Source of the DNA: Bacillota bacterium
GTDB taxonomy: Bacteria; Bacillota; Clostridia; Lachnospirales; WQUN01
DNA length: 32,238 nt
NCBI GenBank assembly: GCA_009778185.1
Contig: WRKG01000292.1
Coordinates: 1-32,238, forward strand
Reading direction: 5' to 3'
Below are positions 8,284 to 30,466 of the stretch, piece by piece. Made by a program: the position numbers and the translations under genes. The notes beneath the pieces were generated by a model. The model was not told the DNA's origin and did not search any database. It saw only the letters and a program-made list of their open reading frames with translations. The first letter of the stretch is position 1. The number at the start of each line of letters is the position of its first letter.

Positions 8284-9078
8284 ATGTACAAAACCAACGA
8301 AATTACACCATTACTCAAAAAAATTTTTGACGAACATGGTTATAGTGTTTTGAACAATGCACAAATTTTTGTCTCTTTAATTAGGGATTACTTATCCGAA
8401 AAAGGCTACAAAAAAGAGGCTGCTATTTTAGCTGAAATTTATTCTATCGTGTCAATCGGTAAAAGATTATACGAAAATCGGCAAACTTCACAGACAAATC
8501 AAGAAAAAGCTGCCAAACAAATTTTGAACGAATTACGTAGCAACTACGATGAAGAAACGGCTGAATTTGCTGTAATGTCTGTTACTGGTGCTTTGAACTG
8601 GCAACTTTCAATTTCGGCTCATGAACAGGAAAATAAAAAGCCTTTCTTTGGTGGCTTGTTTGGCGAAAAAACAAAAAAACAAAATTCAAGTAACTCAAAT
8701 TCAAGCAACACTAAAAGCCCTGCCAATATGCCAAGTAAAAATAACCGTACCATTGAGTTGACATTCTCATGTCCGCCTGAAATGGGCGGCTCAACGAAAC
8801 AATCCAATAATACTTCTTGGGTTCATGCAAATTGCGGCAATAACGCTACTTTATTACTTGACCTTGACAACTGGAATATTGTATGTCCAGCCTGTGGGAA
8901 AAAAAGCCTGTGTACTAGCTGGGAATATGACGGAACAGCATACTCCATGAAAGTAACAGGAGAAAATGCTACAGGAAACTTCCAAAAAATTAAACACGGT
9001 TTCATAACGTATGCACTTGCAGATTTGTTGCCAAATTCTCTTGACGAGGTAGCCAATTTTGTTAATGCAGTAAAATAA
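8284..9078 (+). CDS. Hypothetical protein: helical N-terminal domain, low-complexity Ser/Asn linker, C-terminal zinc-ribbon-like domain
   Basis: ORF with RBS gaaagggag; C-terminal CPP...WVHANCGN...IVCPACGKKSLCTSWEYDG; N-terminal LLKKIFDEHGYSVLNNAQIFVSLIRDYL. Confidence 0.75.
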   Translation: MYKTNEITPLLKKIFDEHGYSVLNNAQIFVSLIRDYLSEKGYKKEAAILAEIYSIVSIGKRLYENRQTSQTNQEKAAKQILNELRSNYDEETAEFAVMSVTGALNWQLSISAHEQENKKPFFGGLFGEKTKKQNSSNSNSSNTKSPANMPSKNNRTIELTFSCPPEMGGSTKQSNNTSWVHANCGNNATLLLDLDNWNIVCPACGKKSLCTSWEYDGTAYSMKVTGENATGNFQKIKHGFITYALADLLPNSLDEVANFVNAVK

Positions 9079-9122
9079 TCATAGTCAATTTAGGCTTATA
9101 AACATTAAAAAGGAGTGGAAAT

Positions 9123-9899
9123 ATGACACGTAATCAAGCACCACAAGTTTCAATTCAAGAAAGTTTGCAGTACGTAGACGATGCTTTTCAATTTGTTGTC
9201 ATCGCTTTGGAAAAACTGGAGGCTTGTCTGGAAATTGAGCGAACTGGAAATTGTAATCTAAAAACAACGGCGGTAGGTAAAAATTTAGATTTTCATGACG
9301 ATATAGCTGTTCCGCCTACTGAACAAAAATTGCACGCTGAATTAGAAAATCAGTGCATAGGATTATTTATGCAATCCAAAAGTTTAGAAAAAGTCGGTAA
9401 ACAGGATTTTGACAAAGCAGTTAAATATTTTCTTAATGATTTACTATCCTGGTACGGAGGTAGAAAGGATTCTGTTCCTCCAAATGTAGTTGAATGCTAT
9501 TTTTTGCCTATTGCGTTTTCGGTAAGTCAATCGGTCAAAAATATCAACGATATATCCGATGTAATAAAGCAATATGTAGTGGACACTAACAACGATTTTG
9601 AAAAGCTACCCGACGATGTAAAGAAAAAAGCAGTATTAGATGGACATCGTAATTGGGTTTTAGCGGTTGAAAAAGCGGGAGCGTTACAAAAAGAGTACAT
9701 TGAAAGCGGGAAAGCGAACAAACCCTTTGCTTATTCTGCACACAAACGCGGTACTGCAAAAGATGGCTTAAATCGGATATTAAGCTACTTTGTTCAAACG
9801 TACAAAGATCCAAATCCTGTAATTCGGCAAGTTGCTCATGTTATTAAGCAATACTTGCCAGAACAAATTGATGTGGTTACACATTATACTAATAGATAG
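9123..9899 (+). CDS. Hypothetical protein of unknown family (predicted largely helical)
   Basis: 258-aa ORF with aaggag RBS inside the collinear operon; no family recognised. Confidence 0.7.
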   Translation: MTRNQAPQVSIQESLQYVDDAFQFVVIALEKLEACLEIERTGNCNLKTTAVGKNLDFHDDIAVPPTEQKLHAELENQCIGLFMQSKSLEKVGKQDFDKAVKYFLNDLLSWYGGRKDSVPPNVVECYFLPIAFSVSQSVKNINDISDVIKQYVVDTNNDFEKLPDDVKKKAVLDGHRNWVLAVEKAGALQKEYIESGKANKPFAYSAHKRGTAKDGLNRILSYFVQTYKDPNPVIRQVAHVIKQYLPEQIDVVTHYTNR

Positions 9900-9909
9900 A
9901 GGTGTAAAT

Positions 9910-10245
9910 ATGGCTACTTATTTTGAATTATATTTTCAATGCCCTGTTTGTATAGCATTAGGTAACACTAACATTCCTACATCTTACTGGGAACACAGTT
10001 CAGACGGCGGAATAATTGAAGTTGGCGATGATGCAAATTATAGATGTAAATCATGCAATCAAAAAGCACACGTTTCAAAATGGCAATATGGTTGCCCTGG
10101 TCACTCGGGCGATAATGGCGAATTAGTTTACAAAGCTGCAAGTCCTCAATCAATGGTAAAAGCATTTGGTATTGCAGCACAAATGTCAGACCAATACAGT
10201 TCTCAGTGGCTTAAAAACTTTATCAACAACCTGGGCGAGTGGTAA
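9910..10245 (+). CDS. Zinc-ribbon small protein, paralog A
   Basis: QCPVC...YWEH...GDDANYRCKSC...WQYGCPGHS; ATG 9910 just after the previous stop; DNA-level similarity to 10250-10603. Confidence 0.75.
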   Translation: MATYFELYFQCPVCIALGNTNIPTSYWEHSSDGGIIEVGDDANYRCKSCNQKAHVSKWQYGCPGHSGDNGELVYKAASPQSMVKAFGIAAQMSDQYSSQWLKNFINNLGEW

Positions 10246-10249
10246 AACT

Positions 10250-10603
10250 ATGGCTACTTATTATGAATTGTATATGCAATGCCCTGTTTGCATAAGTAGG
10301 GGTAACAATAACATTCCTATGTCTAGTTGGGTACATAATTTAGATGGCGGAATAATTGAAGTTGGCGATGACGCAAATTATAGATGTAAACTATGCGGTC
10401 TTACATTACATATTTCATATTGGGCATATGGCTGCCCTAATCATTCGGATGATAATGAAGAAGTAGTTTACAAAGATGCAATAAGACCGCATCATGATAA
10501 ACAATTTGGTTTTATAGCACAACTTGGTATTGCAGCACGACTGTCAGACCAATATAGTGCTCAGTGGCTTAGAAATTTTGTCTACAACATGAGCGATTGG
10601 TAA
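10250..10603 (+). CDS. Zinc-ribbon small protein, paralog B
   Basis: MATYYELYMQCPVC...WVHN...GDDANYRCKLC...WAYGCPNHS; starts ATG 10250, near-identical start region to 9910 ORF. Confidence 0.75.
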   Translation: MATYYELYMQCPVCISRGNNNIPMSSWVHNLDGGIIEVGDDANYRCKLCGLTLHISYWAYGCPNHSDDNEEVVYKDAIRPHHDKQFGFIAQLGIAARLSDQYSAQWLRNFVYNMSDW

Positions 10604-10696
10604 AATCAGCAATGCAAGGCTCGCATTCGCTTGTTCGTCTAAACGGATGCGGGCGTATATTTTCTTTATCAATAAAGAAAGGAGGGAAATAGCAAT

Positions 10697-11140
10697 TTGG
10701 GAACTTGGTCTAAGAAAGAAAAGGACTTGTGGCATAAGTGGCGTAAGGATAAGCTGAGTCCTGTGGTTATGGAGAGTGTTCGTAGGGCGATTGACAGTTC
10801 GTATAACTTAACCTATTACAGACTATATATTCAATGTCCAGTATGTATAGGAATGGGCTATCGAGTACCTTTTACCCATTGGATTCATGGTAATTGTGGT
10901 GGCTATCTTGAAATTGGGGATAATGCCCATTATAGATGTGCAAGATGTTTGCACGAAGATCACGTAGCTTTTTGGGAATATGGATGCCCTTATCATTCGG
11001 GCGGTAACGGAAATTATTTGGTTCATAAAAAGGTTTCCGTTAATTCAATAATTAAAGCACTCGGCATTGCCGTTCAAATGGCTGATTATGGCGGAAGTGT
11101 ATGGATGAAAAAATTTTTAGACAACTTATGGGATTATTAG
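10697..11140 (+). CDS. Zinc-ribbon small protein, paralog C with extra charged N-terminal segment
   Basis: YYRLYIQCPVC...HWIHGNCGGYLEIGDNAHYRCARC...WEYGCPYHSGG; aaaggaggg RBS, TTG start. Confidence 0.72.
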   Translation: MGTWSKKEKDLWHKWRKDKLSPVVMESVRRAIDSSYNLTYYRLYIQCPVCIGMGYRVPFTHWIHGNCGGYLEIGDNAHYRCARCLHEDHVAFWEYGCPYHSGGNGNYLVHKKVSVNSIIKALGIAVQMADYGGSVWMKKFLDNLWDY

Positions 11141-11152
11141 GAGGATTTTAGC

Positions 11153-13204
11153 ATGACCAAAAAATTTCGTATAAAAATGTTTAATAACGATGGTAATTTT
11201 CCCAAAAATAACCTCGATATATGGGTATCTAGTGATATATACTCTGATTTTGCAAATTTTAACGGAAATGAAATAGACCGACCAGTTTATGTAAAAGTCA
11301 GCACTGCCGCATTGGTTGGCGAAAATATTTTATATGCAATTCTTCAGCCGTCCAACGATGCGGACGAAAATATCGCATATATATCAAAAGACATTGAACA
11401 TAGCACCGATGTATATTTTTTGAATAACGAAGAAGTAACCATTGAACCCATTGAATACGATAATTTCGTCCAAGCGGAACAAGTTACAATCTCGCTTAAA
11501 AGCGAAGAGGTATATTTATGGTCAGCCGAGGAAGTTAGCAATTCTGAAAACTCTGTGTTGACAAATAATAAAATAGTTTTCTTAAATCAAATTATGTGGA
11601 TTAACCCGTTCACCATAAAGCAAAAAACGTTGGCAAAAGTTATTGATATATTTCCACGTAATCCAGATAATCCTAATATTGCTTATCAGACAACAAATAA
11701 AACCAAAATAATCTTTGAGGGATTGCCAGAATCGCAACAAAAAGTAATTGACTTTAACAAAATCGGCGGTTTGAATGACGTTATTATTAAAATTAGAGAG
11801 ATTGTTCAAATACCTCTGCATTTTCCTGAACTTTTGGAAAAATTTGGAATTGTTCCTCCAAGAGGTTTATTGTTGTACGGACCTCCTGGCAACGGAAAAA
11901 CAATGATTGCACGGGCAGTGGCGGACAACATGGGTGCAAGATTTTTCTCTATTGAGGGTTCGCAACTGCTATCAAAATTTGTAGGCGTAGGCGAGCAAAA
12001 ATTGGAAGATTTGTTTAACGATGCTGCCAAAGCAGCAGAAAAAGGAAATGCAATAATCTTTATAGACGAATTGGATTCAATGGCAATGCGAAGAGATAAA
12101 TACGACGTTGAACATAACATAACCATGGTAGGCAGATTATTATCGTTGATGGATGGCATACATTCCAGACGCAATGTATTTGTTATAGGTGCAACAAACA
12201 GGCTAAATACTATAGATTCCGCTTTTCGCCGCCCTGGACGTTTTGAATTAGAGTTTGAAATTCCAAACCCAAACCTAAACGCTAGATACGACATTTTAAC
12301 TAAATATGTAGATATATCCAACAATGAAATTATCGCAAAAGAAGTGGACAACAATTTTTTGTCCCAAATAAGCGAGCTAACAAATGGTTATTCGGGCGCG
12401 GACATAAGTTCGCTGTATCGCCAAGCTGTAATGAACGCTATGCGAAAAGCAATCGACATAGATTCAGTAGGAAAATTGCTACTAAAACACGAAAACGTAA
12501 CTTTAACAAAAGATGATTTTGAAGTTGCAAGAAAAAGCATAACGCCAACATCATTGCGTGGAGTTGATGTTCCGCCAATTAGTACAAGCTGGGACGAAAT
12601 AATTGGTTTATGCGAGCCTAAAGAAAATTTGCTTAAAATACATGATTATTTTTCCGCAAATACAGAGGTTGACACATTTGGTTATAGACCAGATTTCTTA
12701 AATTTAATTTTTAAGGGCGATATAGGTTCAGGCAGAAAAACGCTTGTTAAAGCCTTTGCAACAGGTTTTAACTATGAATTGCTACCGATTGACCTTTTGA
12801 ATTTGTTTACTCTTGGCTATAAAGAAGCATTTAATGCTATTGACGAAACGTTTTTGAAAGCCAAACAAGTTGCACCTTCCATTATATATATTAGCAATCT
12901 GCAAAATATCGACAAAGCGGATTTGTTTTTGCATAAACTTCTCAATAATACAAGACAGCTTAATGCAAGGCACAAAATATTGATAATTGTTGAAATAGAC
13001 AACAAAGGGGATATTCCAAATAATTTAATAGGCTACAAAGCGTTCCAAAAGCCAATCAATTTTGAATGGCAACCCGAAGAGTTATCACAAATATTTGACA
13101 AATATAATGTTGACAACGAAACAGGAGAACATCTCATTAAAGAACATGGAATAACCACCACAGGACATTTAATATCGAAGCTAAAAAATTTGCAATTTCA
13201 ATAA
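11153..13204 (+). CDS. Cdc48/VCP-like tandem AAA+ ATPase (canonical D1, degenerate D2) with unique N-terminal region
   Basis: D1: GPPGNGKT, pore-loop KFVG, IIFIDELDSM, IGATNR, RRPGRFE. D2 region: GDIGSGRKT and IIYISNLQ in place of canonical Walker A/B. Aggagg RBS. Confidence 0.9.
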   Translation: MTKKFRIKMFNNDGNFPKNNLDIWVSSDIYSDFANFNGNEIDRPVYVKVSTAALVGENILYAILQPSNDADENIAYISKDIEHSTDVYFLNNEEVTIEPIEYDNFVQAEQVTISLKSEEVYLWSAEEVSNSENSVLTNNKIVFLNQIMWINPFTIKQKTLAKVIDIFPRNPDNPNIAYQTTNKTKIIFEGLPESQQKVIDFNKIGGLNDVIIKIREIVQIPLHFPELLEKFGIVPPRGLLLYGPPGNGKTMIARAVADNMGARFFSIEGSQLLSKFVGVGEQKLEDLFNDAAKAAEKGNAIIFIDELDSMAMRRDKYDVEHNITMVGRLLSLMDGIHSRRNVFVIGATNRLNTIDSAFRRPGRFELEFEIPNPNLNARYDILTKYVDISNNEIIAKEVDNNFLSQISELTNGYSGADISSLYRQAVMNAMRKAIDIDSVGKLLLKHENVTLTKDDFEVARKSITPTSLRGVDVPPISTSWDEIIGLCEPKENLLKIHDYFSANTEVDTFGYRPDFLNLIFKGDIGSGRKTLVKAFATGFNYELLPIDLLNLFTLGYKEAFNAIDETFLKAKQVAPSIIYISNLQNIDKADLFLHKLLNNTRQLNARHKILIIVEIDNKGDIPNNLIGYKAFQKPINFEWQPEELSQIFDKYNVDNETGEHLIKEHGITTTGHLISKLKNLQFQ

Positions 13205-24359: not shown

Positions 24360-24520
24360 TGGCAATGGTGGATTGGGATAAACAACTTAAGAAATCTGAT
24401 GTTGAGCCTACTTACACAGATGAGGAAATATTGGAAATTTGCAAGAAAAATTTGATAAAATATGCAGATGTATTTCGGCGGTTAGAGGAGTTGGACAACG
24501 GTGGACAAACCTTCGATTGA
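24359..24520 (+). CDS. 53-aa putative antitoxin upstream of Doc-like ORF
   Basis: MAMVDWDKQLKKSDVEPTYTDEEILEICKKNLIKYADVFRRLEELDNGGQTFD, translated by hand; ATG overlaps the xylanase stop (taATG) and the 3' end overlaps the next ORF. Confidence 0.55.
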   Translation: MAMVDWDKQLKKSDVEPTYTDEEILEICKKNLIKYADVFRRLEELDNGGQTFD

Positions 24521-24869
24521 AAAAATATGCAAAATTAACCGCTTGATTTTGAGACGTAAAAACACATTGCGAGATGTGAATTTGTTGGATTCTTGTATTA
24601 GCTCTGCTTTCCAATCTTACGGCGGAACGGATTTTTATGCAACCGATTTTGAAAAAATCTGTCGCATTTCCTATGGAATCGTCAAAAACCACGCTTTCAT
24701 TGACGGAAACAAACGTACTTCGTTGGCTTTTTTGACTACATTTTTAGAAATATATGATTTTCCGCCACTAAAATGTACGTTGCTTATAGAGCCTGTAATA
24801 CTTATGACGGCACAAAGCCTTATATCTTTTGAGGATTTTTGCCTAATGGTTAAAGATTTATTGGAATAG
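24501..24869 (+). CDS. Fic/Doc-family protein (death-on-curing-like toxin)
   Basis: ISYGIVKNHAFIDGNKRTSLAFLTTFLEI matches HxFxDxNKR Doc/Fic motif; GTG start. Confidence 0.85.
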   Translation: MDKPSIEKICKINRLILRRKNTLRDVNLLDSCISSAFQSYGGTDFYATDFEKICRISYGIVKNHAFIDGNKRTSLAFLTTFLEIYDFPPLKCTLLIEPVILMTAQSLISFEDFCLMVKDLLE

Positions 24870-24889
24870 CCACTCGAAAGGAGAACTCA

Positions 24890-25426
24890 ATGAACCTAAC
24901 TTTTGCCGATTTTGCAACAAAAATGTCAACAATGCCACGGCACGGCGATATTGTTTCGGGCTTTTCGCTTGGCTTGGAGGATAAATGGCGAACCTTTTAC
25001 AAAAAAGGTCGACTTGTTTTCAACCAAGAAAACCTCAATCTTGCATATACTGGCTCGCTGGCGGACGGCTTTCGCTTGCTAGATGCCACGCAAAATTTTA
25101 CCGAGGAATTTTTGGACGAATGCTCTTGCGTTATGCCAGATGTTATGATTTTTATGCACAATAATCTAAAACGCTACCGTAGCAAAACGCTAGGTTATCC
25201 CGATTTAGTAGTAGAAGTTTGGTCAGATAGCAACAACTCCACCGAAAAAGACTTCAAAACTCTGCTGTACAGCACGGGCAAAAACACCGAACATTGGTAT
25301 TTAACGCAACATTCCAACATAATCGAATGCTGGCACGAAACCACAAAATTGTCAACACAATCTTTGCAAAATATATTAGTAACGCAAAGCGGCATATCGT
25401 TTGATTTGCGGCATTTGGCAATATAA
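24890..25426 (+). CDS. Uma2-like putative restriction endonuclease-fold protein
   Basis: PDVMIF...LGYPDLVVEVWSDSNNSTEKDFKTLLYSTGKNTEHWYL, pattern of Uma2 (DUF820) proteins; gaaaggag RBS. Confidence 0.78.
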   Translation: MNLTFADFATKMSTMPRHGDIVSGFSLGLEDKWRTFYKKGRLVFNQENLNLAYTGSLADGFRLLDATQNFTEEFLDECSCVMPDVMIFMHNNLKRYRSKTLGYPDLVVEVWSDSNNSTEKDFKTLLYSTGKNTEHWYLTQHSNIIECWHETTKLSTQSLQNILVTQSGISFDLRHLAI

Positions 25427-28241: not shown

Positions 28242-28247
28242 AAAAAC

Positions 28248-28310
28248 AAGGCACATTTGGGAATTGAACCCATAAACCGAAAGTTTTACCGTTTTTGCTG
28301 TCTGTGCCTT
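28248..28310 (-). other. tRNA-like hairpin (degenerate or truncated tRNA), also usable as argH terminator on + strand
   Basis: Minus strand: AAGGCACA...TGTGCCTT 8-bp closing stem and TGGG-TTCAATT-CCCA T-arm-like hairpin, only 63 nt with no clear D or anticodon arm. Plus strand: same stem followed by tttttgttatttt. Confidence 0.45.
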
Positions 28311-28392
28311 TTTGTTATTTTAACATTTATTTTTGTATAAAACAAGGTTGCATTTTGAATATAATATTTGGCAACCTAAAATAGGAGGAATC

Positions 28393-29670
28393 ATGCAAAA
28401 AATTATTATAAACAAGTTAGGTCCGATTGATTATGCGGAGTTGGAATGCACGAAGTGGATGGTGTTTATTGGTGCGCAGTCCACTGGGAAAAGTACGGTG
28501 GCTAAGGCTATTTTCTTTTTTAGGAAAGTTGGCGAAAGTATTTTTGACCTTTTGGTGGAAAATACCATGCTTACAAAAGTTTCAGATACGGAAAATTTTA
28601 CACATAAAATAATGACAGCTTTGAGTGAAAGATTTATGGATATATTTAGCTCTTTTGTCATGTCTAAAGATACATCTGTGCAATTTTACTATGCTAATGA
28701 AACATATATAAAAATATCGTTTTTGCTAGAAAATGATATAAATATCGACTTTAGTGAAAATATTGTACAATATTTAATTGAAGTTGATGCAGATATATTG
28801 ACTTACAGAGAATTGTCAACAGAATTGTCAAAAAGTTTTAGTAATTCTGAAAAAAATAGTAAATGGATTTACCGTGAAAGAGCAAAATTACGAAAGTTGT
28901 TTGAAGATAAATATAAAAATATTTATCTTCCAGCAGGACGTAGTATGATAAGTTTATTAGCTGAAAAATTAGACCGTATGCTTTTTACTATGAACGATTC
29001 CCAAAAACAAATGCTTGATTTCTGCATTCGTTGTTATTTAGAAGATGTTCTTGAGTTGCGACCAGTATTTAATAGTTTTTTAGAGCGTAAATTATCAAAA
29101 AAAACTGCGTTGGAATTAACCGAAAAGATTTTGAACGCCACATACAGCTACGGAGACGGAAATGAACGCCTAGAATTACCCAATGGTCAACATATAAGTT
29201 TGAGTAGGGCATCTTCTGGTCAGCAGGAAGTTGTGTGGGTAACAAATTTGTTAATCTATTCCTTGTTGCATGATAAACAAAAATTTGCATTCATAATAGA
29301 AGAACCCGAATCCAACCTATACCCAGAAACGCAAAAGCAACTAATCGACCTAATAGCCCTAACAGCCAACCAAGGCAACAACATAATAATAACAACGCAC
29401 AGCCCATATATTTTGGGCAGTATAAATAATTTGCTGTACGCTGGGCAGTTTGCCAAACAAAACGCCGAACTCGCCACAAAAGCAAGCAAAATCATCGACA
29501 AAGATTTTTGGATAGACAGAGCGGATTTATCCGCTTGGCACGTGAAAGACGGCACGGTTACAAATTGTATCGATGACGAAATTGGGTTAATCCAAGACGA
29601 ACTGATTGACGAAATTTCAGGCGTTATAAACAAAGAATACGCTGATTTGTTGGATATTGAGGAGGATTAG
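28393..29670 (+). CDS. AAA-family (OLD/ABC-like) ATPase
   Basis: Walker A GAQSTGKST, signature-like LSRASSGQQE, Walker B FAFIIEEPESNLYPE, H-loop IIITTHSPYIL; aggagg RBS before ATG 28393. Confidence 0.87.
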   Translation: MQKIIINKLGPIDYAELECTKWMVFIGAQSTGKSTVAKAIFFFRKVGESIFDLLVENTMLTKVSDTENFTHKIMTALSERFMDIFSSFVMSKDTSVQFYYANETYIKISFLLENDINIDFSENIVQYLIEVDADILTYRELSTELSKSFSNSEKNSKWIYRERAKLRKLFEDKYKNIYLPAGRSMISLLAEKLDRMLFTMNDSQKQMLDFCIRCYLEDVLELRPVFNSFLERKLSKKTALELTEKILNATYSYGDGNERLELPNGQHISLSRASSGQQEVVWVTNLLIYSLLHDKQKFAFIIEEPESNLYPETQKQLIDLIALTANQGNNIIITTHSPYILGSINNLLYAGQFAKQNAELATKASKIIDKDFWIDRADLSAWHVKDGTVTNCIDDEIGLIQDELIDEISGVINKEYADLLDIEED

Positions 29671-29672
29671 TA

Positions 29673-30107
29673 ATGCCAATTAACAATTTTGACTCTTGGT
29701 GTGATAAAAATCAACCAATAATAGTTTCGCAAGACGGGGGCAAAAATTCCCCTAAACACACGGCAATCAATGCAGCAGAACCTCCAGCATATGTAACACA
29801 ATACAAAATTGACGGCGTTATATTAAAAAACGAAACTTGCTGTGATTTTCTGGTTATTAACGAGGAAACTCGCATTGCTTATTTGATTGAATTAAAAGGA
29901 CACGGCATAGAAAAAGCAGTTGACCAACTAGAAAGCACCGAGAAAAAACTCAGCAAGCAACTGGAAAATTACGATTTGCGTTTTCGCATTATTGCAAAGC
30001 GATTTCCTAAACCAGCCCGTGAAACCACTAAATTTAAGAAATTTTGTCATAACAGGAAAAACAAAGTGATTCATAGATCGGGCGGTTATCTTGAAGAAGA
30101 AATTTAG
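29673..30107 (+). CDS. Small protein with PD-(D/E)XK-like motif, partner of upstream ATPase
   Basis: CDFLVINEETRIAYLIELKGHGIEKAVDQL (D...ExK pattern); 2 nt after the ATPase stop. Confidence 0.55.
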   Translation: MPINNFDSWCDKNQPIIVSQDGGKNSPKHTAINAAEPPAYVTQYKIDGVILKNETCCDFLVINEETRIAYLIELKGHGIEKAVDQLESTEKKLSKQLENYDLRFRIIAKRFPKPARETTKFKKFCHNRKNKVIHRSGGYLEEEI

Positions 30108-30125: not shown

Positions 30126-30466
30126 ATGTTCCAAACTTACCTAACCACCGCCAAAGCCGCCTACCAAACAAACGAAAACGCAAAAACACCACACAACAAC
30201 CACCAATCCCTAGAATGATTTGCAGGTGCAGGAGGATTAGCATTAAGGCTTGAAAACGCCGAATTTTCAATTTAGAACCTGCCGAATTGGATTTGCTTTC
30301 GAGCGATTATACTTGTCAAGCGTTCAGTTATGCGGGAACAAGCGGCAGTTTTGCCGATGTGTGCGGAACGGTGTTCTATTATTATGCGGAATTTTTGCGA
30401 CAACTAAAGCCGAAAATATTTTTGGCAGAAAACATAGGAAAATCAATCACAAATGCGCTAATCTAG
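30126..30466 (+). pseudogene. Decayed C5-cytosine DNA methyltransferase fragment
   Basis: Frame from ATG 30126: ...NNHQSLE*FAGAGGLALRLENAEF (motif I with in-frame TGA), then frame change to SSDYTCQAFSYAGTSGSFADVCGTVFYYYAEFLRQLKPKIFLAENIGKSITNALI* (degenerate PCQ and ENV motifs). Confidence 0.8.

Follow-up and report, generated by a model that had tools for sequence, protein, structure and literature searches.

What is the function of a gene pair in which an ATPase is followed by a small nuclease-like protein? The window, i.e. the whole stretch of 32,238 nucleotides analysed here, contains such a pair (genes A and B; Table 1) in the chromosomal interval between argH and recO/era. The original prediction described it as a candidate defence pair, consisting of an OLD/ABC-type ATPase and a 144-aa partner with a D...ELK nuclease-like motif, and held it to be not obviously Septu or PARIS. 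Below, we describe the two proteins, their relatives and their surroundings, and suggest a model in which the pair is a WonAB-like system that probably aborts phage infection.

Table 1. Positions of the features discussed in the text, numbered from the first nucleotide of the window.
Feature	Position	Strand	Remarks
Apparent AAA-centred module	8284..13204		
Fic-domain protein, then Uma2-like protein	24501..25426		
tRNA-like element	28308..28245	-	between argH and gene A
Ribosome-binding site and leader of gene A	28378..28392	+	aggaggaatc before ATG 28393; aggagg at 28383
Gene A, OLD/ABC-type ATPase	28393..29670	+	ATG 28393 to stop 29670; 425 aa, 48.9 kDa; WonA-like, PDC-M29A
Gene B, predicted PD-(D/E)XK nuclease	29673..30107	+	start ATG 29673; 144 aa, 16.6 kDa; WonB-like, PDC-M29B
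Decayed C5-cytosine DNA methyltransferase	30126..30465	+	FAGAGGLALRLENAEF and ...DYTCQAFSYAGTSGSFADVCGTVFYYYAEFLRQLKPKIFLAEN; two frames with stops; PF00145 2.5e-11

The ATPase and its small partner

All the ATPase motifs quoted in the original prediction are present in A, i.e. the Walker A motif GAQSTGKST with K33 and also Q29, the signature SSGQQE at residues 274-279 (SSGQQ at 274-278), the Walker B motif IIEEPESNLYP with E303/E304 and the H-loop THSP with H336; in addition, R183 lies within PAGRS. Pfam reports only AAA domains in this protein (AAA_15 at 2e-21 and AAA_21 at 6e-17). Among 14 relatives of A, R183, the SSG-Q signature, E303, E304, E306 and H336 are invariant, as are D394, D406 and S409 in the C-terminal extension formed by residues 345-425, while K33 is kept in 13 of the 14, the exception being L023, in which the N-terminus is missing as annotated. 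As originally noted, no TOPRIM domain was found in A, the C-terminus included, by Pfam, PADLOC or a fold search; because 89 residues remain after the H-loop, such a domain would not fit. The structure model of A has a mean pLDDT of 69 and was built, like that of B, on 5-7 sequences; its best matches in the fold search are retron I-A PtuA, AriA, Rad50, OLD, Septu PtuA and Gabija.

Gene B begins after a gap of 2 nt and, like gene A, has a strong ribosome-binding site, in this case gaggagg just before the start codon. Both genes lie where the original prediction had placed them. In 14 sequences with identity down to 20%, residues D47, C57, D58, E73, L74, K75 and Q85 of B are invariant. Because the D58...E73-L-K75 element is constant in these homologues from several phyla, the D...ELK motif is no chance occurrence. 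In a shallow AlphaFold2 model (mean pLDDT 62, with 77-87 in the core), strands at residues 41-45, 59-63 and 68-75 are followed by a helix (79-92) and then a further strand (101-108), and D58 begins the second strand while E73/K75 end the third, which is the arrangement of PD-(D/E)XK enzymes. Foldseek searches with this model return mainly PD-(D/E)XK nucleases, with N.BspD6I (prob 1.00) first, followed by Hjc, T7 endonuclease I, EndoMS, PspGI, Avs3, Can2 and XisH. Since the E-values of these matches start at 0.0075, none being at or below 0.001, and the model is of mid-confidence, they are consistent with a PD-(D/E)XK fold without being decisive. Searches of Pfam, NCBIfam and PHROGs give no significant match to B, and a PDB sequence search with B or its profile gives no match; relatives of B have weak Pfam matches to DUF2726, PDDEXK_9 and PDDEXK_11. 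Neither an HNH domain (Pfam, PADLOC, NCBIfam), the lack of which had also been predicted, nor a TOPRIM/DUF4435 signature was found in B. Based on residue conservation and the model, we predict that B is a PD-(D/E)XK nuclease with the active site D58/E73/K75, i.e. that the partner has a nuclease fold as the original prediction supposed.

Linkage, distribution and surroundings of the pair

Homologues of B are present in the sister species, another member of the family, Lachnospiraceae and other Clostridia and Bacillota, and also on a mobilizable plasmid from Muribaculaceae, a plasmid of Bacteroides finegoldii, prophage contigs and two unannotated contigs labelled "Bacteriophage sp.". The two genes recur next to each other in unrelated genomes. 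An A homologue directly precedes B in 15/15 loci that have two intact genes and a contig reaching upstream of them (this count leaves out L025, with a frameshifted A, and L005/L015, with a truncated pair). Moreover, the protein distances of A and B correlate in a mirror-tree comparison with r = 0.89, a value reached by none of 5000 permutations, and thus A and B evolve as a unit. Judged from these comparisons, A and B are inseparable, co-evolving and obligately paired. The pair in the window is real and probably intact. The pair is sporadic and occurs in approximately 1% of the sampled genomes (3/295 in the order, 3/391 in the class and 6/399 in the phylum, the last count taking in one probable false match). 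L022/L029, which emerged as a B homologue with an E-value of 6.6e-4, is without an ATPase partner and was therefore treated as a false match. Scans of viral contigs kept yielding, for the most part, the same two or three loci, and those that started from Gram-negative relatives did not retrieve the WonAB sequences.

The surroundings of the pair recurrently include defence genes or mobile elements, rather than indicating a random scatter, and together with the conservation of the pair as a unit this agrees with the original reading as a candidate defence pair. In the window, the decayed methyltransferase is directly 3' of B, and is a defence-type neighbour outside the system itself. Elsewhere, a type IIG restriction-methyltransferase is downstream of the pair (L002; 4e-163), the pair is flanked by a PDC-S45 peptidase (2.7e-101) and an Abi_alpha protein (1.2e-26) in L030, and a DUF6119 protein and a SIR2-like protein with a weak PDC-S21 match are upstream of it in L010:980-4004. 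Signs of mobility near the pair are a phage S24 repressor (L018), a Tn916 Xis-like gene (L024), an integrase (L026) and a resolvase on a MOBV plasmid (L011). At least three pairs, in distant genomes, are within polysaccharide-synthesis clusters rather than classical defence islands, namely those in L003 (Lachnospiraceae), L023 (the B. finegoldii plasmid) and L025 (another Bacillota). As side observations, the L010 contig is labelled "Bacteriophage sp." and is otherwise bacterial or element-derived in look, and two separate prophage contigs each have a trypsin-like peptidase with a PDC-S45 match (L030:2888-3715 and L032:849-1835) near a WonAB-like pair, which suggests a possible recurrent association of this peptidase with such pairs.

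The genus comprises two genomes only. The sister species has three copies of B, one of them decayed, and in that species a pair sits at the matching place after argH. Across this site, identity between the two species is 92% for argG, 82% for argH, 68% for A and about 40% for B. Identity is 81-96% at the two ends of A and 47-54% in its insert, and falls to 27% in the last third of B. A fragmentary third copy (L005/L015) has 92% nucleotide identity to the window over the C-terminus of A and the first 48 codons of B. This pattern of divergence, together with the identity of the L005/L015 copy, points to mosaic exchange and to rapid evolution of the parts presumed to sense infection and to act as effector, as is typical of defence genes. 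One could go further and regard the Bacillota branch as a diversifying variant, in which the insert of A and the C-terminal half of B change rapidly while the ATPase core stays constant, genomes hold several mosaic copies and alleles are swapped at one chromosomal site. Because of the rapid turnover of these two parts, triggers and RNA targets might then differ between alleles. We consider this extended reading decidedly improbable.

Two other parts of the window were noted. One of them looks like an uncharacterised AAA-centred module; this cluster includes two products without clear Pfam matches (8284-9078 and 9123-9899) and three similar small cysteine-bearing proteins that are apparent tandem duplicates (9832-10245, 10166-10603 and 10697-11140), and also encodes a 683-aa AAA protein with a CDC48-type domain and lid. 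The small Fic-domain protein (PF02661) and the Uma2-like PD-(D/E)XK protein that follows it have weak matches to the PADLOC candidates PDC-S23 and PDC-S03; the Fic homologue is kept beside argG in the sister species.

Relation to PDC-M29, WonAB and other ATPase-nuclease systems

In PADLOC, A is matched best by PDC-M29A (3.5e-28), ahead of AriA (1.7e-25), and the sole match to B is PDC-M29B, which is partial (3.5e-4, 18.7 bits). Thus, both models of PDC-M29 are matched by the window genes in the right order, the match to B being weak. PDC-M29A also matches 14/14 relatives of A (best 2.9e-49) and PDC-M29B 6/14 relatives of B (best 3.3e-10); the B of the window was not among the results of a six-frame scan of the whole genome with the PDC-M29B model. 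PDC-M29 is itself a putative defence candidate of computational origin, and a literature search for "PDC-M29" found no paper naming it.

The closest tested counterpart is WonAB from the Vibrio cholerae WASA-1 prophage, which consists of an OLD-ABC ATPase and a 16.1-kDa PD-(D/E)xK protein and which, according to experiments from 2025, aborts phage infection via a shutdown of translation (PMC12137116). Both genes are needed, residues K34, R182, E300 and H333 of WonA and K71 of WonB are essential, and WonB is toxic only if WonA with an intact ATPase is present; genomic DNA stays intact while translation stops, and tRNA or rRNA is the suspected target (PMC12137116). The window pair has the same organisation, i.e. 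a two-gene operon with the OLD-ABC ATPase first and the small PD-(D/E)xK protein second. By position, the essential residues correspond to K33, R183, E304 and H336 of A and K75 of B with near-identical spacing, the two small proteins are similar in mass (16.1 versus 16.6 kDa), and the ATPases have in common a C-terminal extension after the H-loop. Both kinds of pair are rare and borne by prophages and other elements; the window pair, however, is in the chromosome of a Clostridia-type gut bacterium, whereas WonAB is in a V. cholerae prophage, and its homologues have been reported mainly in Gram-negatives (PMC12137116).

According to the same paper, all WonAB homologues are part of a broader family termed "OLD-ABC ATPase + Novel REase", which is present in 0.96% of genomes and includes an example from the Bacillota species Anaerovibrio lipolyticus (SHI83489/SHI83462; Krishnan et al. 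ABC survey, cited in PMC12137116). So described, this family has the same two-protein architecture as the window pair. From motif positions, architecture, protein sizes and the description in that paper (PMC12137116), we conclude that the window pair very probably belongs to the "OLD-ABC ATPase + Novel REase" family, which includes WonAB.

In Septu PtuAB, retron I-A PtuAB and PARIS AriAB, a sensor ATPase of the OLD/ABC class controls a nuclease, and the ATPase fold is common to these systems and A. Their effectors differ from B in that PtuB is an HNH protein and AriB a TOPRIM protein, neither of which is present in the window pair. Accordingly, Septu was rejected because B has a PD-(D/E)XK core instead of the HNH partner, PARIS because there is no TOPRIM (DUF4435) as partner or fusion, and Gabija and class 1 OLD nucleases because A stops short of a C-terminal TOPRIM. 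The literature likewise treats PARIS, Septu, Gabija and OLD as distinct from the WonAB family (PMC12137116). PD-T4-4 is also an operon of an ATPase and a nuclease, is related to WonAB and has another C-terminal extension and in some cases another nuclease (PMC12137116). PD-T4-4_A matches A at 7.8e-23, whereas PD-T4-4_B gives no match to B up to E = 1, which speaks against membership of PD-T4-4. The initial placement outside Septu and PARIS thus holds for the fold of the partner as well as for its PADLOC match. A functional Septu (PtuAB) or PARIS (AriAB) variant would still have in its favour that A scores against AriA and, at 7e-11, against PtuA models and has fold matches to both. Because these scores are below that of PDC-M29A and are due to the common ATPase core, and B has neither HNH nor TOPRIM/DUF4435 and PDC-M29B as its one PADLOC match, we regard such a variant as hardly credible.

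Since its kind has already been described as PDC-M29 and WonAB, the pair adds a further member to a known type rather than founding one of its own, and is less novel than was originally hoped. Window-type pairs link PADLOC's candidate PDC-M29 to the experimentally tested WonAB. Moreover, intact, fast-diverging pairs occur in Clostridia, in other Bacillota, on plasmids of Bacteroidota and in prophages, and their natural variation could help to locate the surface that senses infection and to identify the target in a kind of system first described mainly from Gram-negative bacteria.

Proposed mechanism and alternative readings

Based on this kinship, we suggest that A and B together make up an abortive-infection system against phages that belongs with WonAB, PDC-M29 and the "OLD-ABC ATPase + Novel REase" family, with A as the sensor and B as an RNA-cutting effector. 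We consider this model likely. That the pair functions in phage defence at all is highly likely, and as to the substrate of B we lean, by analogy, towards RNA. In this model, A would dimerise around ATP and serve as the sensor of infection; the surface used for sensing is probably on its fast-evolving insert (about residues 46-270), and B is probably held by its conserved C-terminal extension. A phage-derived trigger would then cause A to release or license B, and B, by means of D58/E73/K75, would cut RNA needed for translation, i.e. tRNA or rRNA as in the analogy with WonAB. As a consequence, translation would stop and the infected cell would make no more virus. Abortive infection, the activation of B by A and the RNA target are all carried over from WonAB, whereas the sequences themselves show that A is of a sensor-class ATPase dimer type, that its partner is of a nuclease fold class with invariant catalytic residues and that the two are obligately paired.

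Alternatively, the pair could be a defence system that targets DNA, in which A would sense phage DNA ends or replication intermediates in a Rad50/Septu-like manner and B would act as a restriction effector does, degrading or nicking the DNA of the phage itself. The fold neighbours of B are DNA enzymes (the nicking enzyme BspD6I, Hjc, T7 endonuclease I and EndoMS), those of A include Rad50 and PtuA, and DNA is the substrate of most PD-(D/E)XK nucleases. However, the substrate cannot be read from a similar fold, and the closest tested relative, WonB, spares genomic DNA as translation stops (PMC12137116). DNA targeting therefore seems to us unlikely.

Readings without a role in phage defence fare less well. 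The pair could be an addiction module of the toxin-antitoxin type, in which B is the toxin and A the antitoxin and which is kept because it stabilises mobile elements and variable loci. This would suit an operon of two genes, one of them for a small nuclease, that occurs in a prophage, on an ICE-like element and on a mobilizable plasmid. Yet the dependence of WonB toxicity on WonA with an intact ATPase (PMC12137116) excludes simple neutralisation in WonAB, and defence genes adjoin the pair in several loci, making an addiction module improbable. Three pairs (L003, L023 and L025) are within capsule/O-antigen clusters, between glycosyltransferase or nucleotide-sugar genes and in the same direction, which could indicate a housekeeping or glycan-related function in which the pair serves variation of polysaccharide loci or DNA repair. 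Polysaccharide clusters are, however, hotspots of gene exchange, and glycan genes are absent from most other loci. Because the pair is in only approximately 1% of genomes and on unrelated elements, it is not a housekeeping function; we regard this explanation as very improbable.

Finally, the tRNA-like element upstream of gene A consists of an acceptor-like GGCACA/TGTGCC and a T-arm-like TGGGTTCAATTCCCA and is without a D-arm. ARAGORN, at several settings, and Rfam were negative for it, and a pattern search found one copy per genome. The sister species has conserved the element at the corresponding position, with a shorter middle part. Within the improbable reading of a diversifying Bacillota branch, it might even be a decoy or regulator of an RNA-cutting B, but it may simply be a bidirectional terminator for argH.
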